From: Macrosoma leucophasiata
Lineage: Eukaryota > Arthropoda > Insecta > Lepidoptera > Hedylidae
Reading direction: 5' to 3'
Assembly (NCBI GenBank): GCA_036365455.1
Contig: JAWQUS010000010.1
Location: 17,718,501-17,782,500 of the forward strand
Length of the DNA stretch: 64,000 nt
Shown piece by piece: positions 16,311 to 63,140 of this stretch (its first letter is position 1; each line of letters begins with the position of its first letter). Made by a program: the position numbers and the translations under genes. The notes beneath the pieces were generated by a model. The model saw nothing but the letters and a program-made list of their open reading frames with translations. It made no database searches and was not told the origin of the DNA.

Positions 16311-16630
16311 GGTACTAAAATTAGGGTTTAAAAAAATCCGCATGTCAAGCGTGGCGATTGGATTTGGTCTAGCAGTGGAAATCTTTCGGCTGATGTAATG
16401 ATATTTCAAACGTATGGTAAAAATTATTAAGTGCATAGGTCCTATCAGTTTAAGCGCAGTAGTGTGTCATGTGTCCAAAAATATTTTATACCTAAGTTTT
16501 TGATTAATTATTACATACTCGTAAACTTGTAAAGTTAATTTTAAATGTACTTAGGTACTATTTATTTTTCGCAATAACACATGCGAGTGAACTTTAGAAA
16601 TTAAAGAAAACACGGAAAGAAAAATTTTGA

Positions 16631-16706
16631 CTTCGGGCAGGAAAAGAACCTGCGACCTCAGGATAACCAGTCCAGCCGCTTTACCACTAAGCTACCGAAG
16701 TAGCCT
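16631..16706 (-). mobile_element. tRNA-derived SINE, minus strand
   Basis: On the minus strand the head reads cttcggtagcttagtggtaa (A-box region) and cgcaggttc (B-box region), followed by the tail tgcccgaagtcaaaattttt. Further tail to about 16575 ends with gcatgtgttattgcg, close to the 3' end of the 306-bp cassettes at 60.6-63.1 kb. It is therefore an older relative of that family. Confidence 0.6.
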
Positions 16707-16788
16707 GCCCGAAGTCAAATTAATATTTCCGTTTTTTATTTTTACTACCGTGAAGTTTTTCACACATACATGAATGTAACGAAAATTG

Positions 16789-20010: not shown

Positions 20011-20631
20011 TCGGATGGAGAGGGCAATGGGATCGAAAAATTTATGCAAATAAGTAGCTCGCATAAAACTTTGCCCAAAAGTTTCTCTAAGCTTAATTCG
20101 TTATGTAAGAAAATACAACGCGACAAAAAAAAAGCAGATATTTACGAGTAAGACTAAATCAGCGTGAAACAATATTTGTGCAAAAAAAAAGGACAATAGT
20201 GCTACGGGCTACAGGTGTCGTCGAGACGAGATTGACATTGGAGCCACAATAAAATCTGTGAAATATATTTAAGGGGCAGTCATTAAATCATAGAGGCGTA
20301 TACGAAGGACTTATTGTGATAATGTTTGCACAGGTAGTCAGTTAGTCACCTTAATGTTTGCGTGGCGCTTCGATTATGGATTCTTTTTTATTTTTTTTAA
20401 CCACCTTTGTTGAGTAGGCTGACTGACTTTTTTTAGTTGCGGTCAAGTGAAAGTATACCCAATAGATTGTCCTTGTTTATTGGAAGGAGAAATGTGTTTC
20501 AAGATAACTTAACATAGTTTTAAAATTATGACAATTCATTTAAAGTAGGTAAGTACCTACGCTACGTTAGGTATTATTTTTCGCAATTATGCCTGTGAGT
20601 GCATAATAAAAGAATAAAAATTATTAATGTA

Positions 20632-20707
20632 CCGCTTCGATAGCTTAGTGGTAAAGCGGCTAGACTGGTTATCCTGAAGTCGCAGGTTCAATCCCTGCCC
20701 AAAGTCC
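20632..20707 (+). mobile_element. tRNA-derived SINE head
   Basis: gcttcgatagcttagtggta supplies an A-box-like region and gcaggttcaatccctgc a B-box-like arm. The 3' side continues tgcccaaagtccattttttt. It is the same family as 16631-16706 and is diverged from the 60.6-63.1 kb cassettes. The anticodon arm does not fold, so it is not a working tRNA gene. Confidence 0.6.
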
Positions 20708-20739
20708 ATTTTTTTCTTCCAATTTTTTATTTAATTTCT

Positions 20740-22020
20740 AGGTTATTTTTGTCAATAAAAAAACGTAAAAAAATGCAATTGAGGATTACTCACCTTAAGT
20801 GATCAGTCACGTAAGGGGAGTAATTCTCAGTTGAGTATGTCATTTCAAAAATCGTTTATTGACTTGAATAGAGGCAAGTTGTTTACATGTAGGTATGTAT
20901 GTTTGTATAAATGAAACTCTGCCTGAAAGGGTTTTCAGGGCGTCAAATTATATTACCCACCTAAGGTCCTTAGGTTAGGCCTCTATTCAGGGACCTGCTG
21001 CCATTAGACTGAAGTGACAGTAGTAAGGTAGGATTTATAATGGAAAATAAGTCATTTCTTTCTTGCAACCTTAATAAAAAACTGTCCCACTTAACACGAT
21101 TAACCAAATGATGATAAAAAAACGATACGACGAAGATATCGTATCAAACTTAAAAATGCTACATTCCTGATTCAAATCTGACCGGACGAAAGTCAATAAG
21201 CGATTTTTAAAATGAAATGAAAAAAGAATGACACTTGAAACAAATATTTTATGCCTTTAGCAATATGAAGGTAGATTGTTTGATACGTAAGCCTGCGAGT
21301 AAGTGTACTATCATCTCATCTTGAGGTCAATAACCTAATACGTGCGGTACGTGCTTAATTACAGGCAATATCGATGAAGTGCTATGTACTATCTTAGTGC
21401 GAAATGTTAATTCAGGACTATATTGGAACTGGCTTCATCAATCTCTATATCAATTCATCTTTCAAATCATTATTCTTTTTTAGGGTTCCGTAGTTAACAA
21501 GGAACCCTTATAGTTTCGCCTTGTCCGTCCGTCTGTCCGTTCGCGGTTTAGCGCAAAAACTATTGGTACTACAGACTTGAAATTTGGCACAAGTAGGTAT
21601 AAAACCTGAAATAAAAACATAAAAATAAAAATTATTTACTGTATCTCCTCTACATGTAACCTAACGGATAATTTTTGTATTTTTCGTTTTCTATATAGTG
21701 TGGGATATAGTTGGATAGGGATCTTTCAAAAATGTTAGATGTGCTAATATCATTTTTCGATTTACCAACGATTCGATTACCGACCAATGCCTCCCCATAA
21801 GGGGGATATGCCATAATCGCCACGCTTGGCATGTGGATTGGCGATCGCAGTGGTGGTAATCTTACGTTATTGTACTTCCTACCCTATTGGAATGGTTTGA
21901 CCGTCATTGTTCGATCGACTGACTGCACTAATGGAAGAATTATCATCCAGTAAAAGTAAATTCTTCCGCTACTGGGCGGGGGGTTGTCACGTCCCTTCGC
22001 CTATCATAATCCGATTTGAT
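20740..22020. other. Intergenic DNA with repeat fragments
   Basis: Holds the 'ggttccgtag' repeat at 21487-21600 and a family C copy at 21783-22010 (gccataatcgccacgcttgg, cttccgctactgggcgggg). The rest is AT-rich without a recognisable feature. Confidence 0.45.
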
Positions 22021-38152: not shown

Positions 38153-38640
38153 ACGGAGAGCCATAGAGTACGGAGCACGCCACAATCGCATTAGCTCGGC
38201 GGCTGTCCAATGCAACGATGATTCGAGTTTCCTTTGTTTATGGTGGCAGACATGTGTCAAAGTTCGATTGGAATTTAAATTCGGCTCCTTTGTTAGAAAG
38301 TTTTTTTTGTTGAGTTGTAAACACGGCACGGTGATGTTCCAATTTGGTTACTGTCGCTGATGGAAGGTTGGATCTATGACTTCTCTCGTAGCTCACTTGA
38401 TGTTTTTGACGTCGGTATGCCGTATGAATAATTACGAATCATGTTCCGAACGGGCCGCTATTACATGTTGTGTTAAACGGGACTATATTTACACGGTGAA
38501 ATTTTAATCATTTTAGACTTTAGACTCGAAAATCTAGAACTCGGTATCAATAACATAACATTGTACAAATCTTTTTGTTATTGTTATATTTTTATTTTTT
38601 CGCAATATCGTTAGTAAATTTAGAAATTGAAAAAAAAATG

Positions 38641-38730
38641 AAGCGTATGTGGGCTTTAGTAGTGGTAGCGTGCCGGCAAGGTTCAATTCCTGTCCAAAGT
38701 CAAATTTTTCTTTGCATTTTTTTCATAATT
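38641..38730 (+). mobile_element. Degenerate tRNA-SINE fragment
   Basis: gctttagtagtggtagcgtg, aaggttcaattcctgtcc and aaagtcaaatttttctttgc parallel the head-to-tail junction of the SINE relatives at 20632 and 54440. Confidence 0.45.
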
Positions 38731-38769
38731 TTTTTTTGTATTCTTTTTGAATGTCAACTTTTTTAACTT

Positions 38770-54439: not shown

Positions 54440-54529
54440 CTTAGTCTCGCCTGAAGTCAAATTTTTCTTTCCATTTTTCTTAAAAAAAATATATTTTACA
54501 AGCATGTGTTAATGCGTAATAATATAAAA
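54440..54529 (+). mobile_element. 5'-truncated tRNA-SINE with 13-bp target duplication
   Basis: Consists of the tail of the 306-bp cassettes at 60.6-63.1 kb: ctcgcctgaagtcaaatttt to agcatgtgttaatgcgtaat. The exact duplication caaagtacttaga lies at 54427-54439 and 54530-54542. It defines the 3' end of the family (aataatataaaa). Confidence 0.8.
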
Positions 54530-56409: not shown

Positions 56410-57540
56410 TATTAATAATATATTCTTTATTGTACACCAACTTATGATAAGAGACAGAGAAATAAGAGACACAATATACAAGAGGCGGTCTTATCACTAA
56501 GCAGTGATCTCTTCCAGACAACCTTTGGGTTTAGGAAACAGTGCAGATACTAAACAATGGGGGTGTACCCTGCTATATGAAACTTATAAATATAATGTTA
56601 AGTTATAATAACAGTAGACAAGAAACTACTGATCAGGTATCAGCTGGATAAAGAAAAGGACTGGGAAACATTGTAATCATAGGTTCTTTTTTTAAACACC
56701 TCTACAGACTTAGCTTGTCGGATATCCACCGGAAGGGAATTCCAGAGTCGGATAGCCTCCACCGGGAATGAACTAGAATAAAAAGTGGAAGAGTGAGAAG
56801 GAGTCATTAAAGACAAGGAATATGTAGAACAAAGAAAATGGAAACGCTCTTTCAGGTAGGTAGGTAGGTGCGGATTGAACAATAAACAATACAGAAAAGA
56901 GAGAATGTGTGTATTCCTGCGAAGATGAATGGGTAACCACTTGAGCTGTTTGCGAAAATCAGAAACATGATCATATTTGCGTAGTCCAAATATGAATCGT
57001 ATACATAAATTTTGAAGCCGCTCAAGTTTATTTAATTGCTCCTGTGTTAGGTCTGGATAACATATGTCGGCATAATCTAGTATTGGAAAAAGAAGTGATC
57101 GAGCCAGCGTAATTTTAGTGGAAGTAGGCCAGAAATTATGGAGTCTTCTGAGGGAGCCAACAGCAGCAAACATTTTCCGGCTTACCTCAGCGATTTGTGG
57201 CTTCCAAGTTAAACTGTTGTCAATGATTAACCCTAAGTTTTTAACTTTGTCGCAATAAGTAATACACGTGTCATTGAGTACAACTGATGGAACGTCTGAC
57301 ACATCTAATTTAGAGACCTCACGAGAGCTGCCAATAATGATCGCTTGGCTTTTGGAAGCATTAACCTGCAACCCAAATGCATCACACCAGAGAGAAACAC
57401 GTTTAAGATCATCATTGACAGTCCGTATGGCCTCCGGCAGATAAACGAGATTAGCCTGACAATAGATTTGAAGATCATCTGCATAAAGGTGGTAGAGAGA
57501 AGATAGATTCTGAGTTATTAAATTAATGAATTCTTACTTA
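56410..57540 (-). mobile_element. 5'-truncated LINE with partial reverse transcriptase ORF
   Basis: On the minus strand an open frame from about 57535 to 56640 (some 295 codons) starts inside the reverse transcriptase palm. LYHLYADDLQIY carries the catalytic YADD box at about 57493. This is followed by LKRVSLWCDAFGLQVNASKS, the KNLGLIIDNSLTW segment and the C-terminal tail (LNKLERLQNLCIRFIFG, LKWLPIHLRR, AIRLWNSLPVDIR). The order matches CR1/Jockey-type non-LTR retrotransposons. The endonuclease and most of the RT are absent. The 3' UTR carries gataagaccgcctcttgtat and gtgtacaataaag and ends near 56410. There are no internal stops, so the insertion is fairly recent, but it cannot move itself. 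Confidence 0.8.
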
Positions 57541-60260: not shown

Positions 60261-60496
60261 AGTGGCGTGGCAAACAAGCACACGGTTCACGTTGATGGTA
60301 TGTGAGCCTTTTAACATCTACATCTTTATATACGGCCCAATAATTTCCGGCACAGAGGCATAACACCTTAGGCTTCAGGAGTGGTAACGCATCTGCATTT
60401 TGACCTTGGTCTTTGTGTGGGTGTCTATAGGCTGCAGTCTCCACTTAACATCAATGTAAACTGCTTGTTTGCCACTTCCATTACATTAAAAAAAAC
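60261..60496. repeat. Two family A pieces in inverted arrangement
   Basis: A minus fragment 60261-60315 (cgtggcaaacaagcacacgg) is followed by a 5'-truncated plus copy at 60334-60496 (acggcccaataatttccggc to cacttccattacattaaaaa). Confidence 0.6.
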
Positions 60497-60646
60497 ATAA
60501 AATGTAGAGATTTCAATGTAGATGCGCTATACTATGCGATACTCCTTCTAAATCAGTTAACCTATAAGTAAGTTAAGTTTGCATATGTCTCCAAAATACA
60601 TCTTCTTCATTATTTTTATTTTTAAAGAAATGAAAGAAAAATTTTT

Positions 60647-60722
60647 GACTTCAGGCGAGGCTCGAACTCGCGACCTACTGGGAATCTAGTCCAGCCGCTC
60701 TTCCAATTGAGCTACTGAAGCC
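60647..60722 (-). ncRNA. tRNA-like cassette 1 (minus)
   Basis: Same tRNA-like sequence as described at 62056, here on the minus strand. Its downstream tail is truncated at the left array edge, and two extra T residues follow the 3' end. Confidence 0.6.
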
Positions 60723-60954
60723 CTGCCCGATTTGTCGAATTTTTCCTTCACATCTATTGCATTGGTTTATGGTACCAGTAGCGCCATCTATTACCAACTA
60801 TGCTAGTTAGGCAACCGATATAATAGACTTTTCAGTTTATTGAATATCGTAAAGAAGTCGCTTTTACCCTTAATAATTGTTTTTATATTATTTCGCATTA
60901 ACACATGCTTGTGAAATATATTTTTTTATTTTTAAAGAAATGAAAGAAAAATTT

Positions 60955-61030
60955 GACTTCAGGCGAGGCTCGAACTCGCGACCTACTGGGAATCTAGTCC
61001 AGCCGCTCTTCCAATTGAGCTACTGAAGCC
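60955..61030 (-). ncRNA. tRNA-like cassette 2 (minus)
   Basis: Appears identical to the unit described at 62056, minus strand. Confidence 0.6.
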
Positions 61031-61275
61031 CTGCCCGATTTGTCGAATTTTTCCTTCACATCTATTGCATTGGTTTATGGTACCAGTAGCGCCATCTATT
61101 ACCAACTATGCTAGTTAGGCAACCGATATAATAGACTTTTCAGTTTATTGAATATCGTAAAGAAGTCGCTTTTACCCTTAATAATTTTTTTTTTTTTTTT
61201 TTTTTTTATATTATTTCGCATTAACACATGCTTGTGAAATATATTTTTATTTTTAAAGAAATGAAAGAAAAATTT

Positions 61276-61351
61276 GACTTCAGGCGAGGCTCGAACTCGC
61301 GACCTACTGGGAATCTAGTCCAGCCGCTCTTCCAATTGAGCTACTGAAGCC
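61276..61351 (-). ncRNA. tRNA-like cassette 3 (minus)
   Basis: Appears identical to the unit described at 62056. The neighbouring spacer carries the expanded T run at 61185-61207. Confidence 0.6.
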
Positions 61352-61581
61352 CTGCCCGATTTGTCGAATTTTTCCTTCACATCTATTGCATTGGTTTATG
61401 GTACCAGTAGCGCCATCTATTACCAACTATGCTAGTTAGGCAACCGATATAATAGACTTTTCAGTTTATTGAATATCGTAAAGAAGTCGCTTTTACCCTT
61501 AATAATTGTTTTTATATTATTTCGCATTAACACATGCTTGTGAAATATATTTTTATTTTTAAAGAAATGAAAGAAAAATTT

Positions 61582-61657
61582 GACTTCAGGCGAGGCTCGA
61601 ACTCGCGACCTACTGGGAATCTAGTCCAGCCGCTCTTCCAATTGAGCTACTGAAGCC
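61582..61657 (-). ncRNA. tRNA-like cassette 4 (minus)
   Basis: Appears identical to the unit described at 62056, minus strand. Confidence 0.6.
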
Positions 61658-61887
61658 CTGCCCGATTTGTCGAATTTTTCCTTCACATCTATTGCATTGG
61701 TTTATGGTACCAGTAGCGCCATCTATTACCAACTATGCTAGTTAGGCAACCGATATAATAGACTTTTCAGTTTATTGAATATCGTAAAGAAGTCGCTTTT
61801 ACCCTTAATAATTGTTTTTATATTATTTCGCATTAACACATGCTTGTGAAATATATTTTTATTTTTAAAGAAATGAAAGAAAAATTT

Positions 61888-61963
61888 GACTTCAGGCGAG
61901 GCTCGAACTCGCGACCTACTGGGAATCTAGTCCAGCCGCTCTTCCAATTGAGCTACTGAAGCC
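61888..61963 (-). ncRNA. tRNA-like cassette 5 (minus), next to the palindrome centre
   Basis: Appears identical to the unit described at 62056. Transcription from here would run leftward, away from the centre. Confidence 0.6.
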
Positions 61964-62055
61964 CTGCCCGATTTGTCGAATTTTTCCTTCACATCTGCAC
62001 TGGTACCATAAACCAATGCAATAGATGTGAAGGAAAAATTCGACAAATCGGGCAG

Positions 62056-62131
62056 GGCTTCAGTAGCTCAATTGGAAGAGCGGCTGGACTAGATTCCCAG
62101 TAGGTCGCGAGTTCGAGCCTCGCCTGAAGTC
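62056..62131 (+). ncRNA. tRNA-like cassette 6 (plus)
   Basis: Folds as a near-complete cloverleaf: acceptor gcttcag/ctgaagt, D stem gctc/gagc, T stem gcgag/ctcgc around ttcgagc, and a 5-base variable loop. The A box tagctcaattgg and B box gttcgagcc fit Pol III consensus. A T5 run begins 4 bases after the end (62135), a potential terminator. The anticodon stem gctgg/ccagt encloses nine bases (actagattc) rather than seven, so ordinary decoding is unlikely. I read it as the head of a tRNA-derived SINE rather than a tRNA gene; a variant tRNA gene cannot be excluded. Confidence 0.65.
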
Positions 62132-62361
62132 AAATTTTTCTTTCATTTCTTTAAAAATAAAAATATATTTCACAAGCATGTGTTAATGCGAAATAATATA
62201 AAAACAATTATTAAGGGTAAAAGCGACTTCTTTACGATATTCAATAAACTGAAAAGTCTATTATATCGGTTGCCTAACTAGCATAGTTGGTAATAGATGG
62301 CGCTACTGGTACCATAAACCAATGCAATAGATGTGAAGGAAAAATTCGACAAATCGGGCAG

Positions 62362-62437
62362 GGCTTCAGTAGCTCAATTGGAAGAGCGGCTGGACTAGAT
62401 TCCCAGTAGGTCGCGAGTTCGAGCCTCGCCTGAAGTC
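62362..62437 (+). ncRNA. tRNA-like cassette 7 (plus)
   Basis: Appears identical to the unit at 62056, 306 bp downstream. Confidence 0.6.
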
Positions 62438-62667
62438 AAATTTTTCTTTCATTTCTTTAAAAATAAAAATATATTTCACAAGCATGTGTTAATGCGAAAT
62501 AATATAAAAACAATTATTAAGGGTAAAAGCGACTTCTTTACGATATTCAATAAACTGAAAAGTCTATTATATCGGTTGCCTAACTAGCATAGTTGGTAAT
62601 AGATGGCGCTACTGGTACCATAAACCAATGCAATAGATGTGAAGGAAAAATTCGACAAATCGGGCAG

Positions 62668-62743
62668 GGCTTCAGTAGCTCAATTGGAAGAGCGGCTGGA
62701 CTAGATTCCCAGTAGGTCGCGAGTTCGAGCCTCGCCTGAAGTC
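62668..62743 (+). ncRNA. tRNA-like cassette 8 (plus)
   Basis: Appears identical to the unit at 62056, again at 306-bp spacing. Confidence 0.6.
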
Positions 62744-62973
62744 AAATTTTTCTTTCATTTCTTTAAAAATAAAAATATATTTCACAAGCATGTGTTAATG
62801 CGAAATAATATAAAAACAATTATTAAGGGTAAAAGCGACTTCTTTACGATATTCAATAAACTGAAAAGTCTATTATATCGGTTGCCTAACTAGCATAGTT
62901 GGTAATAGATGGCGCTACTGGTACCATAAACCAATGCAATAGATGTGAAGGAAAAATTCGACAAATCGGGCAG

Positions 62974-63049
62974 GGCTTCAGTAGCTCAATTGGAAGAGCG
63001 GCTGGACTAGATTCCCAGTAGGTCGCGAGTTCGAGCCTCGCCTGAAGTC
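62974..63049 (+). ncRNA. tRNA-like cassette 9 (plus), right edge
   Basis: Appears identical to the unit at 62056. Its tail (agcatgtgttaatgcgaaat to aaaaacaa) ends at the right flanking direct repeat. Confidence 0.6.
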
Positions 63050-63140
63050 AAATTTTTCTTTCATTTCTTTAAAAATAAAAATATATTTCACAAGCATGTG
63101 TTAATGCGAAATAATATAAAAACAATCTTCTTCATTATTT

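Follow-up and report, generated by a model that had tools for sequence, protein, structure and literature searches.

Twin-primed L1 copies arise when two target strands prime on one RNA, and they carry a head-to-head inversion between target-site duplications. According to PMC2912911 and PMC12016303, inverted copies make up 18-31% of L1 and 0.02% of germline Alu, and overlaps of 2-5 bp are reported at most inverted junctions of twin-primed L1 copies (PMC2912911). Metazoan non-LTR retrozymes, as described in PMC7229834 and PMC7761336, consist of ~300-bp AT-rich tandem units, occur as short to large multimers, have duplications of >4 bp and carry hammerhead ribozymes. The retrozyme authors proposed a circular template giving cDNAs longer than the unit (PMC7761336). 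The Lepidoptera tRNA-derived SINEs PxSE1 and Metulj (PMC8010984, PMC6685494) are described as short, with a tRNA-like, Pol III-type domain as the 5' head, very many copies and duplications. Inverted arms of tandem repeats are described for the foldback element Tetris (PMC4079207), and Helenus TRIMs (PMC10886601) are short non-autonomous elements with a tRNA-like sequence, LTRs and 4-5 bp duplications, tandem arrays being noted for LTR-11_DR.

Here we describe a 306-bp tRNA-bearing element from a block in a 64-kb stretch of DNA (the window, C10:17718501-17782500) and from samples of its copies in the 616-Mb genome. The element behaves like a non-LTR insertion that is twin-primed on a retrozyme-like template. 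Head-to-head inversions lie between target-site duplications, as in twin-primed L1; unlike the L1 of those reports, 45/64 sampled insertions are inverted, both priming sites are fixed and arms extend over many laps. The AT-rich 306-bp units form arrays and fall within the retrozyme size range (~150-450 bp). In contrast to the retrozymes described, they bear a tRNA-like domain, and with hits accepted to E 10, neither strand of ~three units matched any Rfam ribozyme model, nor was any other circularisation signal found there; the element was therefore not filed as a retrozyme. Head-to-head palindromes are absent from the retrozyme descriptions cited, with 'palindrom' occurring 0 times in the main text of PMC7761336. 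Short length, very high copy number, a tRNA-like domain with putative Pol III boxes and target-site duplications of variable length (9-20 bp) are shared with SINEs, but the tRNA-like part is internal (unit 155-231) rather than a 5' head, and the element was thus not filed as a canonical SINE; 'tandem' and 'palindrom' occur 0 times in the main texts of PMC8010984 and PMC6685494. Tetris, as described, differs from the present element, whose two termini are unlike, whose duplication length varies and which has single-orientation copies. No LTR structure was present in the 64 decomposed insertions. Because of the unlike termini and the 9-20 bp duplications, the element was filed neither as a foldback element nor as a TRIM. 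No comparable system was found among the papers listed by searches of an open-licence library.

Architecture of the block at 60600-63140

A head-to-head palindrome of 306-bp tRNA-bearing units, enclosed by a 16-bp direct repeat, lies at window 60600-63140. Unit coordinates start at TTATTAAGGG (position 1); the tRNA-like part occupies 155-231, a T5 run 235-239, and the A-rich sites A and B end near 261 and 306, respectively. The features of the block, preceded by a copy elsewhere in the window, are as follows.

54443..54529, plus strand: independent single-orientation copy, unit 215-302, ending at site B, with its own duplication (C)AAAGTACTTAGA
60600..60615, plus strand: left target-site duplication (TSD), ATCTTCTTCATTATTT, perfect 16 bp
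60611..61996, minus strand: A arm, 4.5 minus units, outer edge at site A (unit ~259-264), inner end at unit 122
60646..60722, minus strand: tRNA-like copy 1 (ARAGORN)
60954..61030, minus strand: tRNA-like copy 2 (ARAGORN)
61185..61207, minus strand: 23-A tract in one unit, in place of the usual AAAAACAA; sole exception to A-tract uniformity in the block
61275..61351, minus strand: tRNA-like copy 3 (ARAGORN)
61581..61657, minus strand: tRNA-like copy 4 (ARAGORN)
61887..61963, minus strand: tRNA-like copy 5 (ARAGORN)
61997..62022, no strand: 26-nt stretch between the perfect arms, with the head-to-head join at its left end
61999..63126, plus strand: B arm, 3.7 plus units, inner end at unit 95-98, outer edge at site B, 3' end ...AATATAAAAACAA
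62056..62132, plus strand: tRNA-like copy 6 (ARAGORN)
62362..62438, plus strand: tRNA-like copy 7 (ARAGORN, Rfam)
62668..62744, plus strand: tRNA-like copy 8 (ARAGORN, Rfam)
62974..63050, plus strand: tRNA-like copy 9 (ARAGORN, Rfam)
63125..63140, plus strand: right target-site duplication, ATCTTCTTCATTATTT, perfect 16 bp

A preliminary description of this DNA had proposed a near-perfect palindrome around a 26-base centre, and the inverted arms (61200-61996 and 62023-62819) are indeed 100% complementary over 797 nt with 26 nt between them. Its count of nine tRNA-like copies, five minus and four plus, was reproduced by ARAGORN; its count of five and four whole units was not, as the aligned bases amount to 1386 (4.5 units) in the minus arm and 1130 (3.7 units) in the plus arm. 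The repeat period is exactly 306 bp in the plus arm and 306-321 bp in the minus arm. Only A/T runs vary in length between the units of the block, which are otherwise identical; a single column differs, and it falls within the 23-T run at 61185-61207. The proposals of a retroposed tRNA-bearing unit and of recent formation were supported. The Rfam tRNA model scored 49.4 bits on each of the three copies tested on a short stretch (62362-62438, 62668-62744 and 62974-63050); run with fast filters over the whole window, the same model listed 0/9 of the copies at 60646-63050. By eye, the tRNA-like domain also appears to contain putative Pol III boxes. It lies inside the unit, and copies extend through it from site A or site B.

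The flanking direct repeat is a true target-site duplication, as had been suggested. Its 15-bp core occurs only twice in the window, at the two block edges, and repeats of at least 11 bp were found in 0/400 pairs of left and right flanks taken from different loci. The left edge of the block is the A-rich site A, 45 nt deeper in the unit than the right edge, and has 5 bp in common with the duplication. The right edge had been taken for the true 3' end of the element. This was supported by the 87-bp copy at 54443-54529, which has its own 12-13 bp duplication and the same 3' end. The palindrome is real and recent, and it was made by what looks like the usual way in which an abundant element inserts.

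Old, diverged relatives of the unit are also present in the window, at 16563-16742 (minus), 20574-20740 (plus) and 38591-38751 (plus); in all three, the tRNA-like part has upstream of it an inverted piece that resembles the tail (TTATTTTTCGCAAT or similar). They look like aged twin-primed insertions of sister subfamilies; a reading of the inverted tails of these copies (16.6, 20.6 and 38.6 kb) as terminal inverted repeats or foldback arms was dropped given the genome-wide pattern. Beside the block, at 60328-60505, lies a ~170-bp repeat, of which the 64-kb window contains at least 13 further copies. A 297-codon stop-to-stop frame at 56640-57533 (minus) resembles, by eye, a reverse transcriptase fragment (YADD).

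Orientation, edges and target sites across the genome

The abundance of the element was assessed with three sequence words. The 44-base head word (up to 3 mismatches) had 11,174 matches in the genome, the 28-base tail word (up to 2 mismatches) had 24,070, and a 62-base word identical to the young subfamily of the block had 1,018; backward or control words gave 0 in each case. By arithmetic, 11,174 units of 306 bp correspond to ~3.4 Mb, or ~0.55% of the genome. Scans of viral contigs with three patterns gave 0 matches each. Three samples were then decomposed or fetched. Sample 1 comprised 61 consecutive head-word clusters on contig C1 (exact matches among those listed) and the block of the window; cyclic two-strand Viterbi alignment to the unit yielded 64 insertions of at least 100 bp, one of them a diverged 131-bp piece in L032. 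This sample covers copies with an intact head word and, in its listed matches, the start of the genome only, so that copies lacking the word are missed. Sample 2 comprised nine young-subfamily clusters among the matches listed, outside sample 1, fetched whole or by their edges, and sample 3 comprised ten tail-word places on C1, taken in listing order, with no exact head-word match nearby.

The preliminary description had regarded the inverted nine-unit block as exceptional. In sample 1, however, 45/64 insertions are minus-plus, with 3' ends outward, 17 are single-orientation, 2 are composite and 0 are plus-minus (tail-to-tail), and multi-unit palindromes recur. Site A is paired with site B in 40/45 of the inverted insertions (24 with A on the left, 16 with B on the left), and the other 5 combine A or B with another place (L037, L044, L048, L071 and L086). 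Where an inverted insertion has a duplication of at least 9 bp, the edges are A/B in 37/38. Sample 2 had A/B edges with 12-16 bp duplications in 6/9 clusters, B/75 edges with an 11-bp duplication in one (L107), and a single orientation with no duplication found in two (L106 and L104/L105). Sample 3 contained three A/B insertions (57, 97 and 255 bp) with duplications of 10-12 bp, an inverted B/100 insertion (L112) whose 14-bp repeat lies 12 nt off the edge, two inverted insertions with the far edge beyond the fetched stretch, three single-orientation copies and one composite.

In the three samples together, 46 of the 49 inverted insertions that have a duplication of at least 9 bp, and whose two edges were both seen, had one edge at A and the other at B. 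The exceptions with a duplication are L044 (B/77), L107 (B/75) and L112 (B/100); L037, L048, L071 and L086 are inverted, with one odd edge and no duplication. No A/A or B/B pair was found across the three samples. After correction for overlap with the duplication, site A fell at unit 256-262 in 30/37 insertions and site B at 298-309 in 37/37. Insertions that follow this two-edge rule span 57 bp to 10.8 kb (35 units). The largest, C2:16910160-16920948, has 15 minus and 20 plus words, its left edge at B and its right edge at A, and a perfect 16-bp duplication, ATATCGTCCATTAATT. Unit 75-77, within CTAACTAGC, recurs as an alternative end, at the outer edges of L044 and L107 and at the 5' ends of L032, L069 and L087. 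Directly after this end site lies TAGCATAGTTGG, which we take to be A-box-like.

Duplications were 9-20 bp long, mostly 12-15 bp (37 sites). They reached at least 9 bp in 38/45 true flank pairs and at least 11 bp in 35/45, and the mismatched-flank control reached at least 9 bp in 7/400. With B oriented right, the 37 target sites read AAn|A...TT|nTT, a symmetric motif: position -2 is A at 26 sites, the last two duplicated bases are T at 25 and 22, and TT follows the nick at 20 each. Both nicks thus carry the same motif on opposite strands, and both 3' ends tend to terminate in TT, which can pair with the A-rich sites. The target and the unit overlap by at least 2 bp at 18/37 A edges and 25/37 B edges (raw counts). 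Together, these observations make it very probable that the insertions were twin-primed from two fixed sites.

Palindromes with tandem repeats in their arms are also a property of foldback elements (PMC4079207), and a foldback or TIR-type DNA transposon would account for that part of the architecture. Such an origin is highly improbable given the unlike termini (A against B), the variable inner ends, the 9-20 bp range of duplication length and the single-orientation copies with duplications (L066, L070, L087 and L090). Palindromic tandem arrays are also hard to assemble, yet an assembly artefact is scarcely credible for dozens of separate arrays that are bounded exactly by duplications and have unequal arms and differing lengths, and insertions of 57 and 97 bp share the same design.

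Uniform arms and a candidate circular template

The A-tract interval (unit 296-306) is 12-17 characters long and differs between loci. Within 14/17 multi-unit loci its length is uniform, both arms included (7/7 junctions in L060 and 6/6 in L041), whereas in 20,000 trials with the 67 junctions shuffled among loci, 3.0 loci were uniform on average and 9 at most. The 3/17 non-uniform loci are L055, the composite L056 and the block of the window, which has one 23-A tract among seven. The large C2 array keeps a step of 305 bp in 32/33 within-arm steps. Mean unit divergence is 0.81% within loci and 2.5% between them, a weak comparison, hence, since subfamilies inflate the latter. The idea that units were joined when the enzyme jumped from one RNA template to another was rejected, as junction tails are uniform in 14/17 loci. 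Each of these insertions appears to have been copied from one template.

Variants within loci were found in single units in 72 cases and in two or more units in 15, of which 8 are in L058 and four, at unit 244, were judged by eye to be gap-placement artefacts. Since most variants are in single units, most arrays look as if they were made at once. L058 (C1:6440800-6443000) differs from the other arrays in that variants of its plus array are common to subsets of units, a pattern that suggests later exchange or conversion in that locus. On one alternative reading, an insertion of about one unit was twin-primed and then grew at its site through unequal exchange, slippage or gene conversion; this would also yield uniform units, and the L058 variants speak for it. 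We regard this as improbable, because arm lengths are continuous (40 to 2102 nt), variants are confined to single units in most arrays, A-tract length is the same in both arms (L060, 7/7 junctions) and the near-identical young arrays are the longest among those seen. The earlier proposal that a single SINE inserted and was then amplified and inverted fits poorly for two reasons: the same confinement of variants, and a single two-edge rule that holds over the whole size range of 57 bp to 10.8 kb.

We lean towards reading the block as a single target-primed reverse transcription event of a tRNA-bearing non-autonomous retroposon, twin-primed on circular RNA. Similar TT|nTT-like sites on the two target strands, as a rule 12-15 bp apart, would be nicked, and the two TT-ended 3' strands would prime on one RNA, one at site A and the other at site B, 45 nt away. 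If the RNA acted as a closed 306-nt circle, each enzyme could run many laps and would tend to stop on meeting the start of its own or its partner's cDNA. Joining of the two cDNAs head to head would then leave a palindromic tandem array between target-site duplications. The enzymes would presumably be supplied by a LINE. The RNA would also have to be circularised, a step for which no mechanism was found. Circular folding of the unit gave -75.9 kcal/mol compared to a mean of -56.0 for 60 mononucleotide shuffles, which are a weak control.

The circular template is the best reading of the insertion structure, from which it is inferred, and it is somewhat more probable than not. It is favored because a linear multimer, with many A and B sites, should give A/A and B/B pairs, and none occurred; because arms reach ~20 laps and long arms tend to stop at cDNA-start positions; and because no common RNA 5' end stands out. 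Arm lengths ranged from 19 nt (L113) to ~20 laps of the unit. Among arms of about one lap or more, 28/57 have their inner end no more than 36 nt beyond site A or B, compared to 13.4 expected (P = 2.3e-5). The signal comes mostly from B arms (15/26, P = 0.0002); in A arms it is weak (13/31, P = 0.018), and over all 40 A arms it does not reach significance. These zones were defined only after the data had been looked at once, and their T-rich sequence might favor joins.

Inner ends were also searched for a common RNA 5' end, and the best 14-nt window held 13/98 of them, compared to a simulated mean maximum of 10.4 and a highest value of 16. In seven of the 57 long arms the inner end falls within 150-163, the interval that holds the 5' end of the tRNA-like part, where 2.6 were expected (P = 0.015, post hoc); inner ends in this interval come from L031, L060, L093, L101, L102 and L103. 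A stop at this position is only suggestive, and one idea is that an RNase P cut could open the circle there. Terminal redundancy, with a defined 5' end of the RNA near unit 245, was also considered and rejected, as A-arm inner ends had no significant pile-up there. The single-orientation copies L039, L047, L090 and L109 stop at 245-252 after one lap.

Twin priming could instead have used a long linear RNA of many units, arising either when transcription reads through an older uniform array or when a small DNA circle is transcribed in rolling-circle fashion. This is the only form in which the earlier suggestion of a pre-formed array retroposed whole could stand. Inversion and duplications would be explained, multi-unit source arrays do exist, and the inner ends recurring at position 155 (7/57 in 150-163) could mark the RNA 5' end. 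The A/B rule would be explained as well if a protein complex docked on unit 262-306 and held sites A and B on either side; without docking, A/A and B/B pairs are predicted, and 0 were seen. The multimer also demands uniformity in every source array and RNAs of up to 35 units, and it does not explain why B arms of many laps stop near site A. We consider this alternative, the chief rival, unlikely. For the family, our working account is, on balance, two-ended rolling-circle target-primed reverse transcription, in which a monomeric tRNA-like circle with two fixed priming sites would be copied for up to ~20 laps per side.

Implications for the family

If this account is true, the copying of a tiny circular RNA round and round from both strands would be a new copying mode for a genomic parasite. 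Two-ended insertion would be the normal mode of this family, building palindromic, satellite-like arrays in one step, and twin priming would be the rule of a family rather than an accident. It would also explain how dispersed satellite-like arrays and long palindromes can originate in one step, and would provide small-RNA pathways with many potential long hairpins. The circularisation of a small RNA without a known ribozyme would become a testable question. The genome seems to hold very many footprints of the process, in which the priming sites, the strands and the number of laps can all be read.
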